From assembly GCA_004000155.1 (NCBI GenBank), contig RCSS01000193.1:1-11617 (forward strand): a stretch of DNA of 11,617 bases. The letters are read 5' to 3'. This DNA is from Tubulinosema ratisbonensis. Taxonomy: Eukaryota > Microsporidia > Tubulinosematidae. Below the pieces are notes generated by a model. The model did no database searches and was not told where the DNA came from. It worked only from the letters and a program-made list of their open reading frames with translations. The position numbers and the translations under genes are program-made. Shown one piece after another: positions 1-11,361 of the stretch (position 1 is the stretch's first letter; the number at the start of each line of letters is the position of its first letter).

Positions 1-67
1 TGTAAAACATAAAGTGATTTTTAGATGATAAATTTAATTATTCAGGTATTATCTTATAAAAAGAAGA

Positions 68-289
68 TTTTTACCCTTTAACCAAAGCCTGCAAGTAAGG
101 TAGACTTAGGCAGTCAATAGAGTGCACGGGGTGGGGTTTAGCGTGTGAAAGGCTCACAGTATCTTGAGCTATACCTAAGTATGGGAAACATACTTTACAG
201 TATGTTTCCCATACTTAGGTATTAATATTATTATATAGAAGGTATAGCGAAAAGATTTTAGTATGGATTTCCCATCCCTAGGTAACAAA
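68..289 (+). ncRNA. Candidate structured non-coding RNA, copy 1
   Basis: No long reading frame is present, yet local G/C content is far above its surroundings and the sequence is related to 11156-11361. Conserved blocks are AACCAAA (80-86), CAAGTAA (92-98), TCAATAG (114-120), TTTAGCGTGT plus AAGGC (137-153) and CATCCC..GG.AACAAAAAA (273-292). Proposed pairings are a closing helix 68-75/281-289 with one bulged C; a hairpin 87-90+93-96 with 104-111; a long-range helix 128-136/270-278 (9 bp, two G.U); and 124-127/143-146, which would make a pseudoknot with that helix. A competing hairpin 144-148/154-158 encloses AAGGC. The G.U pairs favour plus-strand RNA. A TATA-like TTATAAAAAG lies at 54-63. 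It is not recognisable as tRNA, 5S, U6, SRP or RNase P RNA; a dispersed non-autonomous repeat is the main alternative. Confidence 0.5.
171..222 (+). repeat. Perfect 24-bp stem hairpin inside candidate RNA copy 1
   Basis: Arms 171-194 and 199-222 are exact reverse complements around a 4-nt loop (TTAC). The core GAAACAT/ATGTTTC is also present in copy 2 (AGAAACAT/ATGTTTCT, 11273-11280/11291-11298), but there the stem is only 8 bp with a 10-nt loop. A second 8-bp perfect complement, GCTATACC (168-175) with GGTATAGC (241-248), shares five bases with the left arm, so two alternative folds are possible. Confidence 0.85.
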
Positions 290-603
290 AAAAAAGGAGA
301 TTATTAATCCAATAAATTTAATTTTATCATCTAAAAATTTATCATGTAGAAAAAGATCAACATAAATAAATACTCCTCAAAAACATCTTTTACCTTAAAG
401 TACCAAAATCACTTTATTTAGTAATTAATCAACCAGACAGTCTTTTATAATTCGAAAACTTACATAACAAAATATTCAATATTTGTTTAATTAAATAAAA
501 GTTAATGTTAATTTGTAGATAAATTAATATTCTTTAAAAATATTAATAAGTTATTTTAGAGGATATTTTATAATTTTTTTTTATTTTTTTTAAAAATATT
601 TTA

Positions 604-614
604 ATCCCTTGACA
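604..614 (+). promoter_or_regulatory. CCC start-proximal motif of the GlnRS gene
   Basis: CCC at 606-608 lies 6 nt before the ATG at 615 in otherwise C-poor DNA. C-rich motifs just upstream of start codons are known in microsporidia. The motif supports choosing ATG 615 as the start and suggests a very short 5' leader. Confidence 0.55.
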
Positions 615-2708
615 ATGCATGAATTAAAAAATAAACTGATCGATTTAGGTTTTACTCCTCAAAAATCAGATGAATTATTAAAAAACAGTGCTTTTAGAAA
701 AAGAATGGAAGAAATAATAGCCACTAAAGAAGACCTAGTCACACTACATGTCATCCTAGCACAACATTCTTCAGATATAAATTTAATTAAAAGTATTAGT
801 AAGAAGGAAATAGTCAATGAAAAACAAATTATCAAAATTTTAAAGGAATGCAAAGACCTGTCAAAAATATCAGAGTTTGTTAAACAAAATACCCTGTCAG
901 AAGAAGAAATTAAAAAAATTATCAGTTCATGCAGAACTAAAAAAGAAGCTTTTAAAATTCTTAACGACAAAGGAGCTTTTAACAATCTTAAAGATTTGCC
1001 AGAAAGAGTTAAACACTTACCTGACCAGGCAGAAAAAGAAGAAACTTTTTGGTTGAAAGAAGGAGTAGTTTCTAAGTTACATTTACCAGGAGAGAATCCT
1101 CAACTGAGTGAAGAAATAAAAAATAATCATTTAAAAAGGACAGGTAAAAAAGTGGTAACCAGGTTCCCACCAGAACCAAATGGTCATTTACACATAGGAC
1201 ATGCCAAAGCAATGGCATTATCTTTTGATTATGCACAGATGTACGATGGGATTACCTTCTTAAGGTTTGATGATACTAACCCTAAAAATGAAGAAATTTC
1301 TTTCTACCATTCAATTAAAGAAGATGTAGAATGGTTAGGTTATAAACCTCACTACATTACTTCATCATCCACATATTTTGAACAAATGATTGATTTTGCT
1401 TATAGGCTTATAGAAAGTGATTTAGCTTATGTGTGTCATTTAACCTCACAAGAGATTCATGAAAAGAGGGTTAGTATTTTAGAAAATACCCCTGAAAATA
1501 ATAAAAATAAAATAAATGAGTTAATAGGAGGAAATTCTTACAATCCCTTTATTAATAAAGAAAATGAATGTTTAACAAATGGTTGTAATCATAAAAAAGG
1601 AAGTTATTTTTTTAATAATTGTATTAACAATGTAAAAAATAGATCACCTTTTAGGAATAGGAGTAAAGAAATTAATAAAATTTTATTTAAAGAAATGTTA
1701 GAAGGAAAGTGGAGTGAAGGGAGTGCAGTGCTAAGATTAAAAATGGAAGAAAGTAACAATCCTTTTATGCAAGATTTAGTGATTTATAGAGTAATAAACA
1801 AAGCACACCCAATTTATGGTAATAAATACTCTGCCTACCCCTCTTATGATTTTGCATTGTGTATCTGTGATTCTTTAGAAGATGTGACACATTCATTTTG
1901 TTCTAAAGAATTTCAAAGTAGACAGATTTCTTACCAATGGTTAATAAATAAGTTAAATATTTATAAACCAGTACAATGGGAATTTAGCAGATTAAATGTT
2001 TCTAACACAGTTTTATCAAAAAGAAAGATTAATAAGTTAATAAAAGAAGGAATAATCAGTGATTATGATGATCCTAGGTTATTTACTTTAAAAGGATTAA
2101 AAAAAAGAGGATTTACCTCTGAGAGTATAAATAAATTTGTTAGGAGTGTAGGAATAACTTACAGTGAAAGTATTATGGATATTAAATTATTAGAACAAAT
2201 ACAAAGAGATGAATTAAATAAGTCAGCAGAGAGAATTACTTGTGTGATTAATCCAATTAAATTAATGGTAAATAATGAATTAATTTATATTTCTAAAAAT
2301 GATTATCAGTCTAAGAGTGAAGATTCTTTTTTAAGGTTAACAGATACACAGTGTGTAGGATTACTTAATAAATTTAATATTAAAGTAATAAAGAAAGAAA
2401 ATGATATTTTACATTGTGAAATAACAAATGATAAACCAAAGAAATACATTCATTGGATAAAAGATTATGAAGAAATAACAGTTAATTTATTTACTTATTT
2501 ATTTAATTCATTCGATCCTGAAGAGAATGAAGATTATTTAAATGATATTAATAAGGATAGTATTAATGTATTAGTAGGATATATTGATAAGAAGGTAATG
2601 AATGATCCTATTGGCAGTAGGTATCAGTTTATGAGAGAAGGGTATTTTTATAAGGTAGGAGAAAAAGAGTTTAATAGGATTGTTGAGTTAAAATCATCAT
2701 TTAAGTGA
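615..2708 (+). CDS. Glutaminyl-tRNA synthetase (GlnRS), cytosolic, class I
   Basis: This enzyme charges tRNA-Gln with glutamine using ATP. I start at ATG 615 (697 residues); the frame is open upstream only to a TTG at 609, an unlikely eukaryotic start. Residues 1 to about 160 form the helical N-terminal region typical of eukaryotic GlnRS. The catalytic Rossmann domain carries PPEPNGHLHIGH (HIGH at about 193-196), the DDTNPKNEE block (about 219-227) and the KMSKS-type loop LSKRK (about 467-471). The C-terminal anticodon-binding beta-barrels run to the end, with IHWI.., the D.LNDIN..S region and a final QFMREGYF motif, so the protein appears complete. An unusual Asn-rich, low-complexity insertion of about 50 residues (about 290-342) precedes the conserved SPFRNRS..E.N..LF..M..G segment. 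Coding-strand composition shifts from C-rich near the start to G-rich at the end. The convergent gene downstream is separated by an intergenic hairpin. Family assignment is secure. Confidence 0.96.
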   Translation: MHELKNKLIDLGFTPQKSDELLKNSAFRKRMEEIIATKEDLVTLHVILAQHSSDINLIKSISKKEIVNEKQIIKILKECKDLSKISEFVKQNTLSEEEIKKIISSCRTKKEAFKILNDKGAFNNLKDLPERVKHLPDQAEKEETFWLKEGVVSKLHLPGENPQLSEEIKNNHLKRTGKKVVTRFPPEPNGHLHIGHAKAMALSFDYAQMYDGITFLRFDDTNPKNEEISFYHSIKEDVEWLGYKPHYITSSSTYFEQMIDFAYRLIESDLAYVCHLTSQEIHEKRVSILENTPENNKNKINELIGGNSYNPFINKENECLTNGCNHKKGSYFFNNCINNVKNRSPFRNRSKEINKILFKEMLEGKWSEGSAVLRLKMEESNNPFMQDLVIYRVINKAHPIYGNKYSAYPSYDFALCICDSLEDVTHSFCSKEFQSRQISYQWLINKLNIYKPVQWEFSRLNVSNTVLSKRKINKLIKEGIISDYDDPRLFTLKGLKKRGFTSESINKFVRSVGITYSESIMDIKLLEQIQRDELNKSAERITCVINPIKLMVNNELIYISKNDYQSKSEDSFLRLTDTQCVGLLNKFNIKVIKKENDILHCEITNDKPKKYIHWIKDYEEITVNLFTYLFNSFDPEENEDYLNDINKDSINVLVGYIDKKVMNDPIGSRYQFMREGYFYKVGEKEFNRIVELKSSFK

Positions 2709-2783: not shown

Positions 2784-2892
2784 TTTTATATTTAAGTCAA
2801 CAAAAAAGATAAATGATATTAACAAAAATAAATAATAATTATTTTTATAAAATTAAATATTATTTATCTTTTTTGTTGATTTAAATATGAAA
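2784..2892 (+). repeat. Intergenic foldback with 37-nt arms
   Basis: Arms 2784-2820 and 2856-2892 pair along their full length, the only departures being three G.U pairs (one at 2787/2889, two within 2791-2820/2856-2885). The 35-nt loop can form its own 8-bp stem (2824-2831/2839-2846). It lies 75 nt after the GlnRS stop and before the convergent gene ending at 3034. It could act in 3'-end formation of one or both transcripts, or be a miniature foldback element. The distance from the stop codon is compatible with either. Confidence 0.8.
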
Positions 2893-3033
2893 TACATACG
2901 AAGATCATTTGCTATGCTTTCTTTAAAAGAATGTTTTATTAAGTAATTTAAAAATATAACTAATTATAATAAAAAAATATGATTTATATAAAAAACACAG
3001 TAAAAAATCAATCTTATCATTGATTAATAAACT

Positions 3034-4632
3034 TTAATTATCCAAATACCATCTACAATACTTGAAAAACATTCCTTCTTCCCAAACAATATCACTTAAA
3101 AATTCTTTTACATAATCAACATTCTCTACTTTTTTATTCTTAGACACACATAAACAGAATTCTTCTATGCTGACAAGTAACTTGGCCAACCTTTTTTCAT
3201 TAAAAAACAATTTAATTTTATTTAGAAAACTAAACTNGTNNNATTTATAATTATATTCAATAAGTTCATATAAAATAAAAGAGTTCAATCTTAAAATAAA
3301 ATCAGTGAACCTCACTGATAAAATTTTATAAACATTTTTTTGTTTTAGTCTGAGGGTTAGTAAATGATTTTCTGTCTTTTTTATTCTGTAAAGTATTTTG
3401 AATAAATAAACCAGTTTGTTAGTTTCTTCTTCGTTGATAAACATGTTTAATGGATATTTTATTATTGGTATGAGGGTAAGATAGTTCCATTGGTTATCTT
3501 TTTCTTCTATTTGGATATCTAAATTCATTTCATTTTCAAAGTTTATTTTTTTAGATTTTGAAGTTTCTATTGGAAAAGTTTGTTTGAATTTTTTGAAGGT
3601 GTTGTTGTATGCACTTTCTAGAATATAAAAGAATGATCTTTTACTTTTGTAAGCTGATTCTCTTAGTAACACAAATAAGGTTTGCATGAAATCTGATCTG
3701 CCAAACAAGATTGTATCTTTGATTCTTTGAAATTGTATATCTGCTAGATTGACGAATTTTGCTTTGTTTTCCTTTTCACTTTCTTGGATCTTGCATTGAA
3801 ATGCATGAATCAAGCTGTCATCCATCAACAAACTGTTTCTGATCAAATGTTTTGACAGGGTGTTTGGCAAAATTTTATTAAAATCTGACAGAATTTTGTT
3901 AAAATTTTGTTCTGGTAACAAAACTTTTTTAATTTCAAAATTGTCATTCAAATTTTCTTCTGAGTGCATGAAAGATTCTTTAACCGAAAGAAAAGTCTTT
4001 TCACACTCTTTTTCATTTACCAGGTCATTTAATTCAATAAATTTGTCTATTTCTTCAAATTTGTTAGTTAAATAACACTGTCTAATATTCTCAAACTGAA
4101 TATCTAACCCTAATTCATTATTTATTCCTAAATTACTGATCAAAAAATAGAACCATTGCAATTCAACATATAATTGTATTAAATTATCACAGTTTAAAAC
4201 ATTTTCTTCGTACCTGTTACATATTTTTTGTGCTACTTCTTTGGTACTCTTTTTTAAACACAAGTACCATTCTTTATACTTCAAAATTTCTAATACTAAG
4301 TTAATTTCTTCATCTTCCAAGCTTAAAATCGCTGTTTTACCATCAAAAAATATTTTCTTGTTTTCGTAAACCAGGTTAGGATACAAAGCTAAATGGGTTA
4401 AGTATTTTGTCACTGGTTTAGAAATTAAACTTAATTTTATGCAAAATTCAGCCAATAAGATGTCTTTTTCTGGTAGGTTATTTTTATAATATAAATAAGC
4501 TTGTGGGTTATTTTTAAGGGTTGCTAAGGTCAAAAATGGGTCTGTCTTAGAGGTGTTTAGTAATGAAATGTATTTTTCTATCTTGGTTGTTTTATTTGAG
4601 AGTGTTAATAATTTTATTAACAGTTTATCCAT
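3034..4632 (-). CDS. Gamma-tubulin complex component (Spc97/Spc98, GCP family)
   Basis: Predicted to be part of the gamma-tubulin small complex that nucleates microtubules at the spindle plaque. The 532-residue protein is largely helical. The recognisable family region is about 385-424, LTLIPIIKYPLNMFI followed by KLVYLFKILYRIKKTENHL, which matches the GCP pattern L.L.Y.V..PL..I......Y..LF..L.rlK..E..L. The preceding FVNLADIQFQRIKDTILFGR and SDFMQTLF (about 293-320) correspond to the family's lk.y.LlG.GDF..... segment, and LRLNSFILYELIEY (about 447-460) to its Fi..l..Y...evie segment. It is short compared with fungal or animal members. The start ATG (4630-4632) is directly preceded by CC. Four ambiguous bases (3237, 3240-3242) hit the codons around residue 465 without breaking the frame. 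GCP2 versus GCP3 type cannot be decided here. The coding strand alternates C-rich and G-rich twice. Confidence 0.75.
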   Translation of the reverse strand: MDKLLIKLLTLSNKTTKIEKYISLLNTSKTDPFLTLATLKNNPQAYLYYKNNLPEKDILLAEFCIKLSLISKPVTKYLTHLALYPNLVYENKKIFFDGKTAILSLEDEEINLVLEILKYKEWYLCLKKSTKEVAQKICNRYEENVLNCDNLIQLYVELQWFYFLISNLGINNELGLDIQFENIRQCYLTNKFEEIDKFIELNDLVNEKECEKTFLSVKESFMHSEENLNDNFEIKKVLLPEQNFNKILSDFNKILPNTLSKHLIRNSLLMDDSLIHAFQCKIQESEKENKAKFVNLADIQFQRIKDTILFGRSDFMQTLFVLLRESAYKSKRSFFYILESAYNNTFKKFKQTFPIETSKSKKINFENEMNLDIQIEEKDNQWNYLTLIPIIKYPLNMFINEEETNKLVYLFKILYRIKKTENHLLTLRLKQKNVYKILSVRFTDFILRLNSFILYELIEYNYKXXXFSFLNKIKLFFNEKRLAKLLVSIEEFCLCVSKNKKVENVDYVKEFLSDIVWEEGMFFKYCRWYLDN

Positions 4633-4634
4633 GG
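4633..4634 (-). promoter_or_regulatory. CC motif abutting the GCP start codon
   Basis: On the minus strand CC immediately precedes ATG, after a run with no other C nearby. It belongs to the set of start-proximal CC motifs seen at other genes in this window and fits the known microsporidian signal. Confidence 0.4.
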
Positions 4635-4757
4635 TTTAAAAAAATATTTTATAAATTAATTTTTAAATTATTCTTTGATAATTTATCAAATAAATAAATA
4701 AATATTAAATTTTCCAATTACAATATAAAAAATAAATTATTAAAAATATTTATTTTA

Positions 4758-5213
4758 TTATTCATCCTCTCCTTTCTCTTTTTTAATCCTTTTAACCATA
4801 TACTCTTTACATCCCTTAATTAACTCATCAACCAATCCTTCTTCAACCTCTTCTATCTTAAAATTATTTTTAAAATGATTAATTTTATTTTTAATTTCTT
4901 CTTCACTAAAAACATTCTCTTTGCTTGCATAAATATCTTTAGAAATAAACAAACTACCAAAAGAAACAGAATCATCACTAATTTTACTTTCATTACCCTT
5001 CTCTATCTCTTCATCATTTACATTTTTAAGTGACAAATATCTTGGCTTTTTTGATTGGATTGGCTTTCCTATCTTTTTGAGGGTAAAAAGTATTATGCTG
5101 TTGTACAACTTTATTGGTATTCTGTGCTGTGCTAACTCTCTTATTATTTCGTCTTGGGATGGTCTTTCTATCAAATGTTTTAGAAGTAGTTGTTTTAATT
5201 TGTCTCGTAGCAT
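4758..5213 (-). CDS. Orphan 151-residue charged protein
   Basis: I do not recognise this protein. Residues 1 to about 52 look like a compact helical domain (MLRDKLKQLLLKHLIERPS, then RELAQHRIPIKLYNSIILF), followed by a hinge rich in Lys, Ser and Glu (about 53-105) and a helical, strongly charged C-terminus ending KRIKKEKGEDE. There is no signal peptide and no membrane segment, so it is probably cytosolic or nuclear. It is likely a real gene: TTCCTTTATG at its start nearly repeats the start context of the RING gene, the frame is open throughout, and the C/G skew of the coding strand switches as in the other genes. It lies 125 nt upstream of the gamma-tubulin complex gene on the same strand, in a gap of plain A/T-rich sequence. 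Confidence 0.7.
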   Translation of the reverse strand: MLRDKLKQLLLKHLIERPSQDEIIRELAQHRIPIKLYNSIILFTLKKIGKPIQSKKPRYLSLKNVNDEEIEKGNESKISDDSVSFGSLFISKDIYASKENVFSEEEIKNKINHFKNNFKIEEVEEGLVDELIKGCKEYMVKRIKKEKGEDE

Positions 5214-5220
5214 AAAGGAA
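5214..5220 (-). promoter_or_regulatory. TTCCTTT start context of the 151-residue gene
   Basis: Reading the minus strand, CC sits 3 nt before ATG, with the same CCTTTATG string as at 10342-10349 in front of the RING gene. This is probably the microsporidian C-rich start signal. Confidence 0.5.
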
Positions 5221-5545
5221 TAAATAAATTTATTTTTTTANTGTTTTAATTTTTATTTATTTTTTTATTTTATTTTGTTTTATTTTAATTTTAATTTTAT
5301 TTTCTTATTTAATAATTTTATTTTAATATTTTTTAAATATTTGATTTTATTTTAATATTATTATTATTATTATTATTATTTTAATATTTTATTTTAATAC
5401 TTTTATTTTATTTTAATATTTTTTAAATTATTATTTTAGTTTGATATTTTTTAATTATTATTATTATTATTTTAATATTTTTTAAATTATTATTTTTTAA
5501 TTATTATTTTTTAATTATTATTTTAATTTTANGATTATAATTTTA
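5221..5545. repeat. T-rich low-complexity tract with (ATT)n microsatellite
   Basis: About 320 nt made almost only of T and A on the plus strand, with variations on TTTTATTTTAATATTTTT and a run of ATT units near 5357-5380 and again near 5458-5470. G occurs only a few times and C hardly at all. Single ambiguous bases at 5241 and 5532 suggest assembly or polymerase slippage trouble. It separates two minus-strand genes: the promoter side of the 151-residue gene and the terminator side of the 393-residue gene. No gene is visible in it. Confidence 0.85.
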
Positions 5546-5662
5546 TGGCAACAAGTTTTTTAACATTAAAAATAAAATTTTACATTTTTTATAAAAGTAA
5601 GATCCATCAATCTTTCAAAAAAAAAGTTAAAATCATTCTTTTACACACAAACAATATCAAAT

Positions 5663-6844
5663 TTATTGATTTTTTATCAAATCAATTTCATCTAAAATCT
5701 CCAAATCAGACTCAGANNCNCNTGNNNCTTCATCAATACAATCACAATACAAACAAACAGCCATCAATCTCATAAACTTCATCTCTTCCACCAAAATAAT
5801 AACCTCTAACTTCAATACTTTCGATTCATCTATCTCATCTATAAACAAATAAACCAAGCTCAACAACACTTTTTGGTAAATTTTTTCTTTTAAATAAAAC
5901 AAACAATCTTCTTTTGTGTATTTCAATAAAGGATGCTTAATCTTAAACCTAATAAACAACACTCTTTGAGTAAAATACATAGCTCTTCCTAACATAATCT
6001 TTAACAAAAAATAATACTTTTTTATTTGGAAAGTGTTAAGTTTTTTTTCTAAAACATATTTAACTGAAAATATTTTACATTTTTTTAAAAAATAAAGCAA
6101 ATATTCCATCTTTTGACTTTTTAACAAAGTAAATAAATCATCCTTAACTAAACATTTATCACAAATAGAAACATAAAATACGACCAAAGAGACAAATTTA
6201 TCTAATTCATAATTTATGCACTCAAAATTTTTGTTTATTTTTTGTAATTCATTTTTTAAATTTCTAAAATAAATAAAATTTAGTTTGTTAAAATTTGTTA
6301 GTTGGATTAGTTCTAATAAATTGTTAAAATGAGGTATTGAGTCTGTTAAACTGAAAGGATCGTTTATATTAAACATTTTATTTTGTAAATCAGAGTCAAA
6401 GGTAAAGTTATTGGGGAATGATTGTGCTTTTATTTGCATTTTTATGTCTAAAAATTCATGAAAATTTTTAAAATCTTGTAAATTTATGCTAACTATTTTA
6501 TCAATGTTTGAGAAAAACATTTCTGTAATGTTTTTTAATGAAAAATTACCGTAAAATTTTTCTTTATTTTGTAAATTAATCCATAATTCTTTTATTTTAG
6601 CAGAAAAATCTAATTCATTTAATTGTTCATTATTTATTTGCAAAACAGGGTTAGTGTTTATTTTTTCATTATTTTTTGGTAAAGGAGTGTCATTTTGATT
6701 TAAAAGAATTAATTTCATTTTTTTAATCCTGTTTGTAAAATTTATATTCCCATTTCCTTTTATTAGTTTGTTATGCTTTGTTGTTAAAGTTACTTTCTGT
6801 GTGAATTTTAAAAGAGAAATAAATAAAAATATTATTGGATTCAT
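5663..6844 (-). CDS. Orphan 393-residue protein with signal-peptide-like N-terminus
   Basis: No family is recognised. Residues 1 to about 17 (MNPIIFLFISLLKFTQK) are hydrophobic and followed by basic, polar sequence, which looks like a signal peptide or signal anchor and suggests entry into the secretory pathway. The rest is Asn/Lys-rich and mostly helical, with several Leu/Tyr/Phe-rich stretches (for example about 222-236) that are probably not full membrane spans. A Cys-containing segment near the C-terminus (CLYCDCIDE) leads into an acidic tail. Ambiguous bases at 5717-5727 blur about four codons just before the tail, so the extreme C-terminus is less certain. A second Met at residue 43 is an alternative start that would remove the signal; the first ATG has CC 8 nt upstream. 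Microsporidia carry many fast-evolving secreted proteins, which would fit. Confidence 0.65.
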   Translation of the reverse strand: MNPIIFLFISLLKFTQKVTLTTKHNKLIKGNGNINFTNRIKKMKLILLNQNDTPLPKNNEKINTNPVLQINNEQLNELDFSAKIKELWINLQNKEKFYGNFSLKNITEMFFSNIDKIVSINLQDFKNFHEFLDIKMQIKAQSFPNNFTFDSDLQNKMFNINDPFSLTDSIPHFNNLLELIQLTNFNKLNFIYFRNLKNELQKINKNFECINYELDKFVSLVVFYVSICDKCLVKDDLFTLLKSQKMEYLLYFLKKCKIFSVKYVLEKKLNTFQIKKYYFLLKIMLGRAMYFTQRVLFIRFKIKHPLLKYTKEDCLFYLKEKIYQKVLLSLVYLFIDEIDESKVLKLEVIILVEEMKFMRLMAVCLYCDCIDEXXXXSESDLEILDEIDLIKNQ

Positions 6845-8214
6845 CTGTTTGTGGTTCTTTTTTTTAATTTAATTGTTTTAATTTGATTGATAAATTATAA
6901 ATTTAATTAAATAAACTCTTTTTTGTATGCATTCATAAATTTAAAGGATTATTCCCTTTTTTTGATTTAAAATGTTTTAAATGAGTAAATTAAAAATTAA
7001 TTATTTTCAATTTTGTATTTATTAAATTAAAAAAATATTTATTTATTTACAATTAAATGATGTTAAAAAACTTTACTAATATTTTCACTAAACATGATTA
7101 TAAAATAAAGAAAATTTTTTAACATCATTTAATTTTAAGTAAAAAAAATATTTTTTTAATTTAATAAATAAAAAATTATATTTTTAAAATTTGATGGTAG
7201 ATGTAATAAATGCTGTCTTAATAAAAGAACAAATTTAAAAAAAAGAAGGATTTTACTACTAATGTAATTAACAATGAATTAGTAATTGTTTTACTATTTA
7301 AATCAATTTCTAATCTATTGTTAAATTTTTAGGATAAATGAATAAAAATATTCAAATTTTAAAAAAACATTTTAAAACAGATTTTACATTATGAAGCTTT
7401 ACTATCTCATCCAATCAGAAGTAATTATCATATAAAAAACAGATGAAATGCATTTGTTTAAGAAAAATTTTACGGGAGAAGAGTTCTTAATCAAAGAATT
7501 GTATTTTGTTAATCGTAAATACGCTTTTCATGGAAATAGCAAAAAAAAATACAGTAGTCTTTGAAGCTAAAATAATAAAACACATCAATCCATACACAGG
7601 TGTTTTTTTCTGATAAATAGTTCTCATATATTTTATTTTTTAAAAAGTGCGATCAAAATTATTACATTGGTAAACACCACATAAAAAATAAACTAATTTA
7701 TTTTACAAATACCCAATAAAGTAAATCAATTTGTAAATATTTTATAAGATTTAAAGAAGTATACAAAACAATCAAAAATTAATTTTTCTAACGAATTTTA
7801 TTTAGAACAATTTATAAAATCAAAAGTTAAATTTTTAACATATTAAGTAAAATTAATATTAATTTGATTATTTTGAGTTATAAAATGTTTAACATCTTTT
7901 GGTATAAGAAAAACAAATGCTTTTTTAAAACATTTTAAATCTAAATGAATAATATTCTTTACAAATTTTTAAGGATCCTTAAAATGAAAGGTTACCATAA
8001 ATTTAATATTCTAAAATTAATTTTTATTTTAAAACTTTTTTAATGTTTGTAATATTCATTTAGTCTCATACTTAAAATTCAGATTAACTAAATATAGTTT
8101 TAAAATTTGTTTCTTTATAAAACAATTTTATATTTAAAAAAATAGGTTTTATTACTTATTTTATTTAAAAAAATTTTATTCACTGATAATCTTATTTTTT
8201 TGATTCAATTAGAT
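6845..8214. other. Gene-free A/T-rich region with multiple inverted repeats
   Basis: There is no reading frame of convincing length on either strand. The stretch holds a large foldback (7009-7177), a weaker imperfect inverted repeat (about 7265-7282 with 7311-7328), an 18-bp perfect palindrome TTTTAAGGATCCTTAAAA (7967-7984), and an 11-bp inverted pair CTAAATGAATA (7941-7951 with 8053-8063) bracketing that palindrome. Two short overlapping frames between 7448 and 7613 contain more G/C than their surroundings but match nothing I know. The density of inverted repeats suggests decayed mobile DNA. Confidence 0.6.
7009..7177. repeat. Large foldback (62-nt arms), MITE-like
   Basis: Arms 7009-7070 and 7115-7177 are inverted copies. 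The inner 20 nt (7051-7070/7115-7134) and a 24-nt block (7017-7040/7146-7169) match perfectly; an unmatched stretch of about 10 nt separates them and one mismatch lies at 7015/7171. The inner block AATTAAATGATGTTAAAAAA has enough sequence complexity to exclude simple A/T chance pairing. The 44-nt centre is unpaired. It has no coding capacity and resembles a miniature inverted-repeat element; target-site duplications are not evident. Confidence 0.75.
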
Positions 8215-9168
8215 TTATTTTAAATTACAATTTTCTAACATTTTTTCATAAACAACAAAATTAATCATACCATCACTAACAAACCTTTCACTATCATTCT
8301 CAATACTTACATAAGTATCATCAAACAAATAAAAAAATCCATTTCTACGACTAACACACCTAAAAAAACTTTTATTTTTTTCTCCAAAAGTGATAAACCC
8401 TACAGATTTTAACAAATATAAACTTTTGAATTTGATCTCCAAATTTGTTTTTAAGTCAAATGTTTCTTTTGTAAAAAATGTTTGATTAAAAGAAAAAATA
8501 AGAATTTTGGGATGGTGAAGGTATCTTGGTTGAAGATCTTTGTTCGGTTGGTTAATTAATAAATTAATTGTGTGTTGAATGTTTTTTATTGCAAGGGTTA
8601 GAATTTTAAATGTGATTTTATAATTTTTATCGAAATATCCCAAGCCAAACAGTTCAAAAATGGTTGAACAATCAACAATCTGACAATATTCTTTATAACT
8701 TAGCTCATCTAACCTTTCAAAAAATAACATCCGATCCTCCATTTCTTCTTTAAACAATTGATTTACAATCGCAATGTACAAATTAGCAGAAAAAGAAGAA
8801 TTATCTTCAAAAAAAATCTTTTTCTCATGAAAATATTCCATAATTCTTTCGTAAAACATTTTGTTCTGAACTGGAAAACCATTCTTTTTAATTTGTTCTA
8901 TAAATTTGTATATTAATTTGGTGATACTATTTTCTTTTAGTTGTGATTTTTTAAGATAATCTATCAAATCATCAAAAGAAGCTAATGATTGGATACAAGT
9001 GTTTAGTGCTGATGATTGTCTGTTATAAGCTTTTATACCTCTTACATCGTAACCTTGTGCATATTTCTTTGTTTCTAGGATACGTAAATAAATTCTTACC
9101 ATGAATATGCAAAAAATGGCTGTGCCTGCAAAAGCAAAAATAAATATTTGTAGTGAAGTACCTAACAT
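8215..9168 (-). CDS. Membrane-anchored USP-like protein, probable pseudoenzyme
   Basis: The 317-residue protein resembles a small ubiquitin-specific protease (peptidase C19) without its catalytic residues. Residues about 5-24 form one hydrophobic span, followed by a basic stretch, giving an N-terminal anchor as in yeast Ubp1 or animal USP30. The Cys box reads G44-I-K-A-Y-N-R-Q-S-S53-A-L-N-T-C-I-Q-S-L, alignable with GL.N.GNTCYMNS.LQ.L; the nucleophile position is Ser53. The His box near the C-terminus reads GEKNKSFFRCVSRRNGFFYL then FDDTYV, where the family has GHY..........W..FDD..V; the His position is Ser267, while the Asp pair (283-284) and final VVYEK (YLLFY-like) are kept. It is shorter than most USPs, so parts of the fingers are missing. 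A ubiquitin-binding or scaffold role is inferred. Start context is ATCCTTAATG. The USP call is by motif only. Confidence 0.6.
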   Translation of the reverse strand: MLGTSLQIFIFAFAGTAIFCIFMVRIYLRILETKKYAQGYDVRGIKAYNRQSSALNTCIQSLASFDDLIDYLKKSQLKENSITKLIYKFIEQIKKNGFPVQNKMFYERIMEYFHEKKIFFEDNSSFSANLYIAIVNQLFKEEMEDRMLFFERLDELSYKEYCQIVDCSTIFELFGLGYFDKNYKITFKILTLAIKNIQHTINLLINQPNKDLQPRYLHHPKILIFSFNQTFFTKETFDLKTNLEIKFKSLYLLKSVGFITFGEKNKSFFRCVSRRNGFFYLFDDTYVSIENDSERFVSDGMINFVVYEKMLENCNLK

Positions 9169-9662: not shown

Positions 9663-9741
9663 CATTTTTTTGATAAATTAAAAAAAAATCTTTTTTTATG
9701 ATAAATTAAAAAAATTTCCTTTTTTATGATAAACTAAACCA
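9663..9741. repeat. Three degenerate tandem repeats plus an inverted copy downstream
   Basis: Three successive units share T6-7 (ATG) ATAAA(T/C)TAAA followed by A/C sequence, with unit starts near 9665, 9691 and 9719 (spacing about 25-28 nt). The second unit also has an inverted partner: 9687-9705 (AATCTTTTTTTATGATAAA) is exactly complementary to 9776-9794. The array lies upstream of the 48-residue gene and could fold into a hairpin or carry repeated protein-binding sites. Confidence 0.6.
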
Positions 9742-9846
9742 ATAAACTAATAATCAAAACTAAACATTTATTAATTTTATCATAAAAAAAGATTATTTTT
9801 TTAATAAAAGGAGTAAAAAGTATTTATACCTAAAAAATAATCAGGT

Positions 9847-10346: not shown

Positions 10347-10937
10347 ATGGATGTAAATTATTTAAAATCTTATTTCCTCATAATACTATTAACCTTCATA
10401 CTTGGTAACTTATTTTTCTTTGTTCTTTATTTTTCTAACAAATATTTCAAAATAAAGAGAAAGTCTTGTATTAAAAAAATAAGAGATTTGACTGACGAAG
10501 ACGATCCAAGAAAATGTGTGCTTTGCTCATCAAGGCCGGGAAACCCAGTTCTAACATTGTGTGGCCATACATACTGTCTGAACTGCTATAATGTCTATTT
10601 TAAGAATACTGGTGATACATATTATTGTATTTCTTGCCGTGATTTTTTACATGTAAATGATTTTATACCATTTTATCCTGGTTCTTTCGATACAAATGAT
10701 ATTTTAAGAGAAGAAAAAAGACCAATTATAAATAACATTTTAGAAGAAAATCAAAAAGAACTTATTAGGCGTAGAAGTTTATTGTTAGGTTATGTGATTG
10801 ATAAATACAATAGGATACCACTTAAAATTGCTGTACCTAATCAGAATGACCATAATTATTTTAAAAAATATCAGTTGTATTTGGTAATTGGTTCTGTGTT
10901 TATGTGTTTTGTTTATTTTGTTTATCATAAAAAATGA
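10347..10937 (+). CDS. RING-finger membrane protein, RNF5/Rma1-like E3 ligase
   Basis: Predicted ubiquitin ligase acting at an internal membrane, probably the ER. The C3HC4 RING at residues 57-97 has all eight ligands: Cys57, Cys60, Cys72, His74, Cys77, Cys80, Cys94, Cys97 (C-x2-C-x11-C-x-H-x2-C-x2-C-x13-C-x2-C). The core PVLTLCGHTYCLNC and the following DFIPFYPG resemble RNF5/RNF185/Rma1 (..LCGH.FC..C.. and VIPLYGRG). The usual Pro after Cys94 is Ile (CISC). A C-terminal hydrophobic span at about 177-193 with tail HKK is like the RNF5 anchor, but an additional N-terminal span (about 8-29) followed by basic KRKSCIKK is not usual for that family. Two spans place both the RING and the linker on the cytosolic side. 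Length is 196 residues. E3 activity is inferred from the intact RING. Confidence 0.85.
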   Translation: MDVNYLKSYFLIILLTFILGNLFFFVLYFSNKYFKIKRKSCIKKIRDLTDEDDPRKCVLCSSRPGNPVLTLCGHTYCLNCYNVYFKNTGDTYYCISCRDFLHVNDFIPFYPGSFDTNDILREEKRPIINNILEENQKELIRRRSLLLGYVIDKYNRIPLKIAVPNQNDHNYFKKYQLYLVIGSVFMCFVYFVYHKK

Positions 10938-11155: not shown

Positions 11156-11361
11156 TTTTTTGTTTTGTAACCAAAACTAACAAGTAAAGGTATATTTAGA
11201 CAATCAATAGGGCACCGGAAGTGAATTTAGCGTGTATAAGGCCAAAATACCCAGAAGATTTTCTACTTGCATAGAAACATCTTTTAATCTATGTTTCTTT
11301 ATTGAAGAACTCTATAAAGCATACATACCTTATAGATTTTTTCATCCCCGGGAACAAAAAA
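11156..11361 (+). ncRNA. Candidate structured non-coding RNA, copy 2
   Basis: Diverged relative of 68-289 in the same orientation. By my hand alignment 33 of 42 columns agree across 80-120 versus 11169-11210, and 15 of 17 across 137-153 versus 11226-11242. The 3' block CATCCC..GG.AACAAAAAA is also shared (11343-11361). The same folds are possible: closing helix TTTTTTGTT (11156-11164) with AACAAAAAA (11353-11361); long-range helix 11221-11225/11341-11345 and 11215-11218/11348-11351 separated by two A.C mismatches; and GCAC (11212-11215) with GTGT (11232-11235). Inner pairs A-U here are G-C in copy 1, a compensatory difference. Hairpins at 11273-11298 and 11312-11335 fill the middle. The family is unrecognised. 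Confidence 0.5.

Follow-up and report, generated by a model that had tools for sequence, protein, structure and literature searches.

The locus and its surroundings

The window, that is, the whole stretch of 11,617 nucleotides that was analysed, corresponds to the entire contig C86 of the searched genome set and has a GC content of 22.3%. It harbours a glutaminyl-tRNA synthetase gene with 72% identity to its Anncaliia algerae counterpart, on the basis of which the source was placed as a microsporidian near Anncaliia. The published draft of Tubulinosema ratisbonensis comprises 7.56 Mb in 952 contigs, with 23.2% GC (PMC6675976), and the set searched here amounts to 4,116,903 bases (4.12 Mb) in 236 contigs, those listed all being longer than 10 kb. 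Four ORFs with no Pfam match and a gene for a RING-finger protein that, as judged by eye, probably has membrane segments are also present in the window (Table 1).

Two related elements, hereafter copy 1 and copy 2, are located at the two ends of the window on the same strand, as stated in the original prediction. Both were detected with a profile for which 49 other copies were used and the two window copies left out. No ORF of at least 60 aa is found at 75-292 or 11165-11361.

Table 1. Positions of the features in the window and of the loci discussed in the text
Feature	Position	Strand	Remarks
Copy 1, probable SINE-like retroposon, full length, 3' A-tail	75..292	+	224.8 bits, E 5e-69 (search of window); aligned with 50 other copies
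Copy 2	11165..11361	+	A6 at 3' end; 43.6 bits, E 1.2e-13
Candidate third copy, 5'-truncated	2885..2934	-	Weak; 22.7 bits, E 2.8e-7 (window alone); model positions 152-202
5' target-site duplication of copy 1, AAAAAGAAGATTTTTA	58..73	+	One base before the element; 14/16 identical to 291-306
3' target-site duplication of copy 1, AAAAAGGAGATTATTA	291..306	+	Overlaps the A-tail
Perfect inverted repeat inside copy 1	171..222	+	Arms 171-194 / 199-222, 24 nt, 100%
Flanks of copy 1 resembling an inverted repeat, ATTTTTAGATGATAAA	17..32 / 325..340		By eye
Glutaminyl-tRNA synthetase gene	609..2708
Four ORFs	3034..9168
RING-finger protein	10347..10937
AT-rich intergenic inverted repeat	2784..2892		37 nt, 92%
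AT-rich intergenic inverted repeat	7009..7177		36 nt, 94%
AT-rich intergenic inverted repeat	9680..9801		36 nt, 89%
158-nt head	L009:1282-1439
158-nt head	L027:1578-1733
158-nt head	L002:1580-1736
Head-element joint with internal deletion (C60)	L010:824-1097
LINE locus L101	C19:7800-12600	-	Endonuclease-like frame and two RT-like frames, broken into three

A dispersed family of short elements

The original prediction described two copies sharing conserved islands. These islands recur genome-wide: ATTTAGCGTGTNNAAGGC yielded 35 matches with at most two mismatches in the 4.12 Mb, against 0 for the reversed control. Allowing at most three mismatches over 28 nt, the 3' end matched at 142 places and the 5' end at 79 in the same sequence, again with none for the reversed control, and the 40 candidates that were scored, of 252 in a DNA search with one copy, are mostly 87-94% identical; the counts of 35, 142, 79 and 40 are all lower bounds.

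Complete copies are approximately 220 nt long, extend from CCTGTAACC to GGCAACAAAAAA and end with a short A-tail, the length of which ranges from 4 to 10 nt among 50 copies. A profile that includes the window copies produced 88 hits in all, and the 51 full-length ones were used for the alignment and the tree. Their majority sequence of 219 nt starts with CCTGTAACCAAAGCC and ends with CATCCCTAGGCAACAAAAAA, and its GC content is 42%, versus 22% for the window. Model position 210 is reached or passed by 76 hits, of which 51 begin at positions 1-7 and 25 at scattered positions between 31 and 189, a ratio that favours full-length copies, as the loci were fetched mainly through the 5' and mid patterns. 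Eight loci with a 3' match and no mid match consist of six 5'-truncated copies, one with an internal deletion and one of full length.

In the tree, the 51 copies branch off as a comb whose inner branches are short, two of the 48 being well supported. Such a shape is typical of a family with few masters and many dead copies. Some copies diverge from the consensus by only 2-4%, and recent activity of the family is therefore probable.

Target-site duplications

The flank 5' of each copy was compared with the flank 3' of its tail for 50 full-length copies (score >90) and 21 of the 25 truncated copies (score >40), using the flanks of different copies as a control. Duplication scores of at least 8 were obtained for 18 of the 50 full-length copies, versus 1.9% of 977 mismatched pairs, and for 6 of the 21 truncated ones, versus 7.2% of 401 mismatched pairs. 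The duplications are 11-17 bp long. Clear cases are found around full-length (L016, L014, L043, L044 and L033) as well as truncated copies (L019 and L091), and L019 is flanked by AATGAACAACACAGA despite its truncation at model position 53. In L096 and L097, duplications are visible by eye that were scored low or missed automatically, and the counts follow the automatic score. The insertion points often have a T before and an A after, in a genome that is AT-rich. Scores of at least 8 are missing in 32 of the 50 full-length and 15 of the 21 truncated copies; their age, together with additional bases at the 5' junctions, could explain such cases.

The dispersed copies, their common 5' start and 3' end, the A-tail, the scattered 5' truncations and the duplications led us to regard the family as a retroposon. 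The window elements are thus very probably copies of a SINE-like, non-autonomous retroposon of ~220 nt rather than working RNA genes, which agrees with two of the options initially listed for them, a dispersed family and a transposon RNA. This reading as a whole, which we hold with high confidence, accounts for the elements without any regulatory, guide or ribozyme function.

In the mechanism that we propose, a short RNA would be made from a few master loci. At a nick in genomic DNA, a LINE enzyme of the endonuclease type would prime reverse transcription at the A-tail, as in target-primed reverse transcription, and incomplete copying would generate the 5'-truncated forms. The inserted copies would then decay as neutral DNA.

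A MITE or another short DNA transposon would be expected to have terminal inverted repeats, and CCTGTAACC and GGCAACAAAAAA are not inverted repeats of each other. The A-tail, the one-sided (5') truncation and the variable length of the duplications also argue against such an element, and we consider it extremely improbable even though copy 1 contains a perfect palindrome and MITEs are known in microsporidia (PMC4405373).

Copies of different ages in the window

The duplication flanking copy 1 has a score of 9.5, and scores of 9 or more are reached by 1.2% of the 977 mismatched flank pairs. For copy 2, no target-site duplication was recognised in the flanks. Its score drops from 92 bits with a profile that includes the window copies to 43.6 bits when both are excluded, it forms the longest end branch (0.48) in the tree of 51 copies, and as a query in a DNA search of its own genome it matches itself only. 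It also includes six consecutive T, at which polymerase III should stop. Most likely, copy 1 inserted moderately recently and copy 2 long ago, the latter having strongly decayed since.

The palindrome of copy 1 is imperfect in the majority sequence of the family, as though the sequence of one arm had been copied onto the other. It was likely made perfect by template-switch correction.

Folding and covariation

The central claim of the original prediction was that of a structured RNA with a long-range helix maintained by covariation. If the elements were functional RNA genes coding for guide, regulatory or ribozyme RNAs, their conserved helix should leave a trace in the many-copy alignment. The helix can form in both window copies, but its covariation was not confirmed with further copies, RNAalifold returning 0 pairs for the alignment of the 51 full-length copies. 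With the consensus fold imposed, the substitution rates are similar, at 0.095 in paired and 0.084 in unpaired columns.

We compared the copies with a null model in which the substitutions of each copy are re-placed randomly among sites with the same consensus base. Compensated doubles are at chance level in all four divergence groups, namely the young (32), intermediate (13) and old copies (5) and copy 2. For copy 2 and the consensus fold, there are 22 broken pairs versus 22.3 expected and four compensated doubles versus 3.9 expected. The numbers of broken pairs match the null model in the young copies, the old copies and copy 2. In the 13 copies of 8-20% divergence, 114 pairs are broken versus 133 expected, and 0.3% of the simulations are as low. 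The commonest substitutions in the family are G to A (244) and C to T (181), and the G-C to A-U changes of copy 2, which had suggested covariation, match these.

Some results are more favourable to a functional RNA. The arms of copy 2 alone have a folding energy of -11.8 kcal/mol and outperform 99.3% of 2000 neutral simulations (equalled by 0.7%, uncorrected), this being one of nine tests and performed on arms preselected in the original prediction. For the arms of eight other copies, 10% to 48% of the neutral simulations pair at least as well. The number of pairs changed on both sides is 24, versus 12.4 after row shuffling (0 of 500), and does not exceed the 23-29 obtained with slid structures. 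The covariation score of 0.106 is above both the shuffles (0.096; 0 of 500) and the slid structures (0.044-0.064), with the caveats that a consensus-derived structure tends to beat its slid versions and that related rows can beat every shuffle. Lastly, folding is somewhat better than that of shuffled sequences, with z values of -2.05 for a consensus-like copy, -1.74 for copy 2 and -6.5 for copy 1, the last one because of the perfect 24-bp palindrome.

Together with the duplications around many copies and the scattered 5' cut points, the lack of RNAalifold pairs and the chance-level compensation largely refute the proposal of functional structured RNA genes, which we regard as very improbable. 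In the strong pairing of the copy 2 arms we see a weak indication that the helix was maintained in an ancestral master. A related scenario would be that of a recently active family founded on a cellular RNA other than tRNA, 7SL or 5S, with copy 2 as a relic of the source gene or of an ancestral master whose helix was under selection; we find it unlikely.

A long form and candidate partner LINEs

The 220-nt unit might also represent the 3' end of a longer retrotransposon, either a LINE or a longer retroposon, in which case most short copies would be its 5'-truncated ends. In line with this idea, a 158-nt head directly precedes CCTGTAACC in three copies (Table 1). This head has 11 matches in the genome including the query, and the 10 others are 74-91% identical to the L009 copy. 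The head-element junction is identical in nine of the 10 joints examined (L002, L009, L027, C2, C189, C93, C38, C124 and C36), which are those of all matches but C181. The tenth joint, C60, has an internal deletion that connects head position ~118 with element position 61. In addition, L002 and C2 have ~90 nt more in common upstream of the head, up to the end of the L002 contig. The long form may be either the terminal part of a longer element or a retroposon of compound structure.

Genome-wide, the RVT_1 signature gave 27 matches. The two strongest RT loci, C231 and C154, were rejected as partners: the former encodes RNase H and integrase and is of the LTR type, as determined from its ORFs and Pfam matches, and the latter is LTR-like by its ORF, as judged by eye. 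The RT parts of the LINE locus L101 score above the Pfam cut-off, and human LINE-1 ORF2p in the PDB is a match of the larger part. The endonuclease match of L101 is weak: its scores of 23.8 and 22.4 bits fall short of the Pfam cut-offs, and one cut-off is narrowly passed together with neighbouring matches. In the searched contigs, the L101 RT matches itself and two short sequences.

On the same strand, 622 nt past the last L101 frame, a 54-nt stretch resembles the last 55 positions of the element and has an A-run (17.4 bits, E 5.2e-6). It may be a tail shared between LINE and SINE or another truncated copy, no duplication being found around it that would settle whether it is the LINE's own tail. 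A decayed LINE RT in C201/L027 has a long-form copy downstream on the same strand, which may correspond to a nested insertion or to a common element. Two of the three LINE RT matches (C19 and C201/L027) are therefore followed by element-like sequence in the same orientation, as expected if the unit were the end of a longer retrotransposon. Nevertheless, near C157, the third RT match, the RT and the element-like stretch lie on opposite strands, the 158-nt head was not found in L101, and the sequences 5' of the head differ among L027, L009 and L010. Moreover, 51 of the 76 3'-reaching hits start within 7 nt of one base, which random truncation would not produce. We thus consider it unlikely that the unit is the end of a longer element. 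For the short SINE-like retroposon that we favour, LINEs of the L101 type are a plausible partner class.

Class assignment

Rfam searches at permissive thresholds with the window, five loci, single copies and the long form gave no convincing match to the element, in agreement with the initial remark that it fits no recognised RNA family. Below-threshold matches on the palindrome of copy 1 were to Plastid-psbM (E 0.003) and several miRNA precursors. A tRNA origin was rejected, since ARAGORN detected 0 tRNAs in 10 loci and no A and B boxes were identified: the best pair of boxes is no better than in shuffled sequences, 99.6% of which reach its score. In this search, the tRNA of the window, used as a positive control, scored 22, versus 17 for the element. 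A UGUAA motif prompted a test of an SRP origin. Neither Fungi_SRP nor Metazoa_SRP has a match in the searched genome, hence there is no local SRP RNA for comparison, and this result says little. As a pol III head was looked for and not found, the family is filed as SINE-like and not as a strict SINE.

Alu and B1 are SINEs mobilized by L1-type LINEs. Like them, the retroposon described here is short, non-coding and multicopy, with an A-tail, target-site duplications, 5' truncation and a master-gene phylogeny. Unlike in them, no resemblance to tRNA, 7SL or 5S RNA and no A and B boxes were found in it, and its LINE partner is a candidate.

Microsporidia are textbook cases of genome shrinkage, and a short, probably recently active retroposon family is found inside the genome of a member of a shrinkage-prone group. 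Annotators of non-coding RNA in microsporidian genomes could take such copies for RNA genes.

For T. ratisbonensis, 160 TE sequences have been reported, with LTR, Mariner and Merlin as the three major families (PMC6675976). In Nosema bombycis, a SINE class appears in Table 2 of the genome report, with 28,669 bp or 0.18% of the genome (PMC3614468). This entry shares with our family the SINE label and a microsporidian host, but it concerns another genus and is a summary line without family, sequence or structure (PMC3614468). Four families of non-LTR retrotransposons (LINEs) have been described in A. algerae, a related host (PMC4202319). They represent a possible class of partner enzymes and, unlike the present retroposon, are autonomous and protein-coding. 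The word SINE does not occur in the main text of that article on A. algerae TEs (PMC4202319), and neither SINE nor SINEs occurs in the main text of the microsporidian MITE article (PMC4405373). None of the literature matches listed describes a SINE family in microsporidia, including Tubulinosema and Nosema. The family is thus a new one of a known kind, seldom described in microsporidia.

Other repeats in the window

Three AT-rich, long inverted repeats are found in intergenic regions of the window. They are possibly small DNA transposons or 3'-end hairpins. Separately, the sequences on either side of copy 1 resemble an inverted repeat, and a hairpin element may enclose copy 1.
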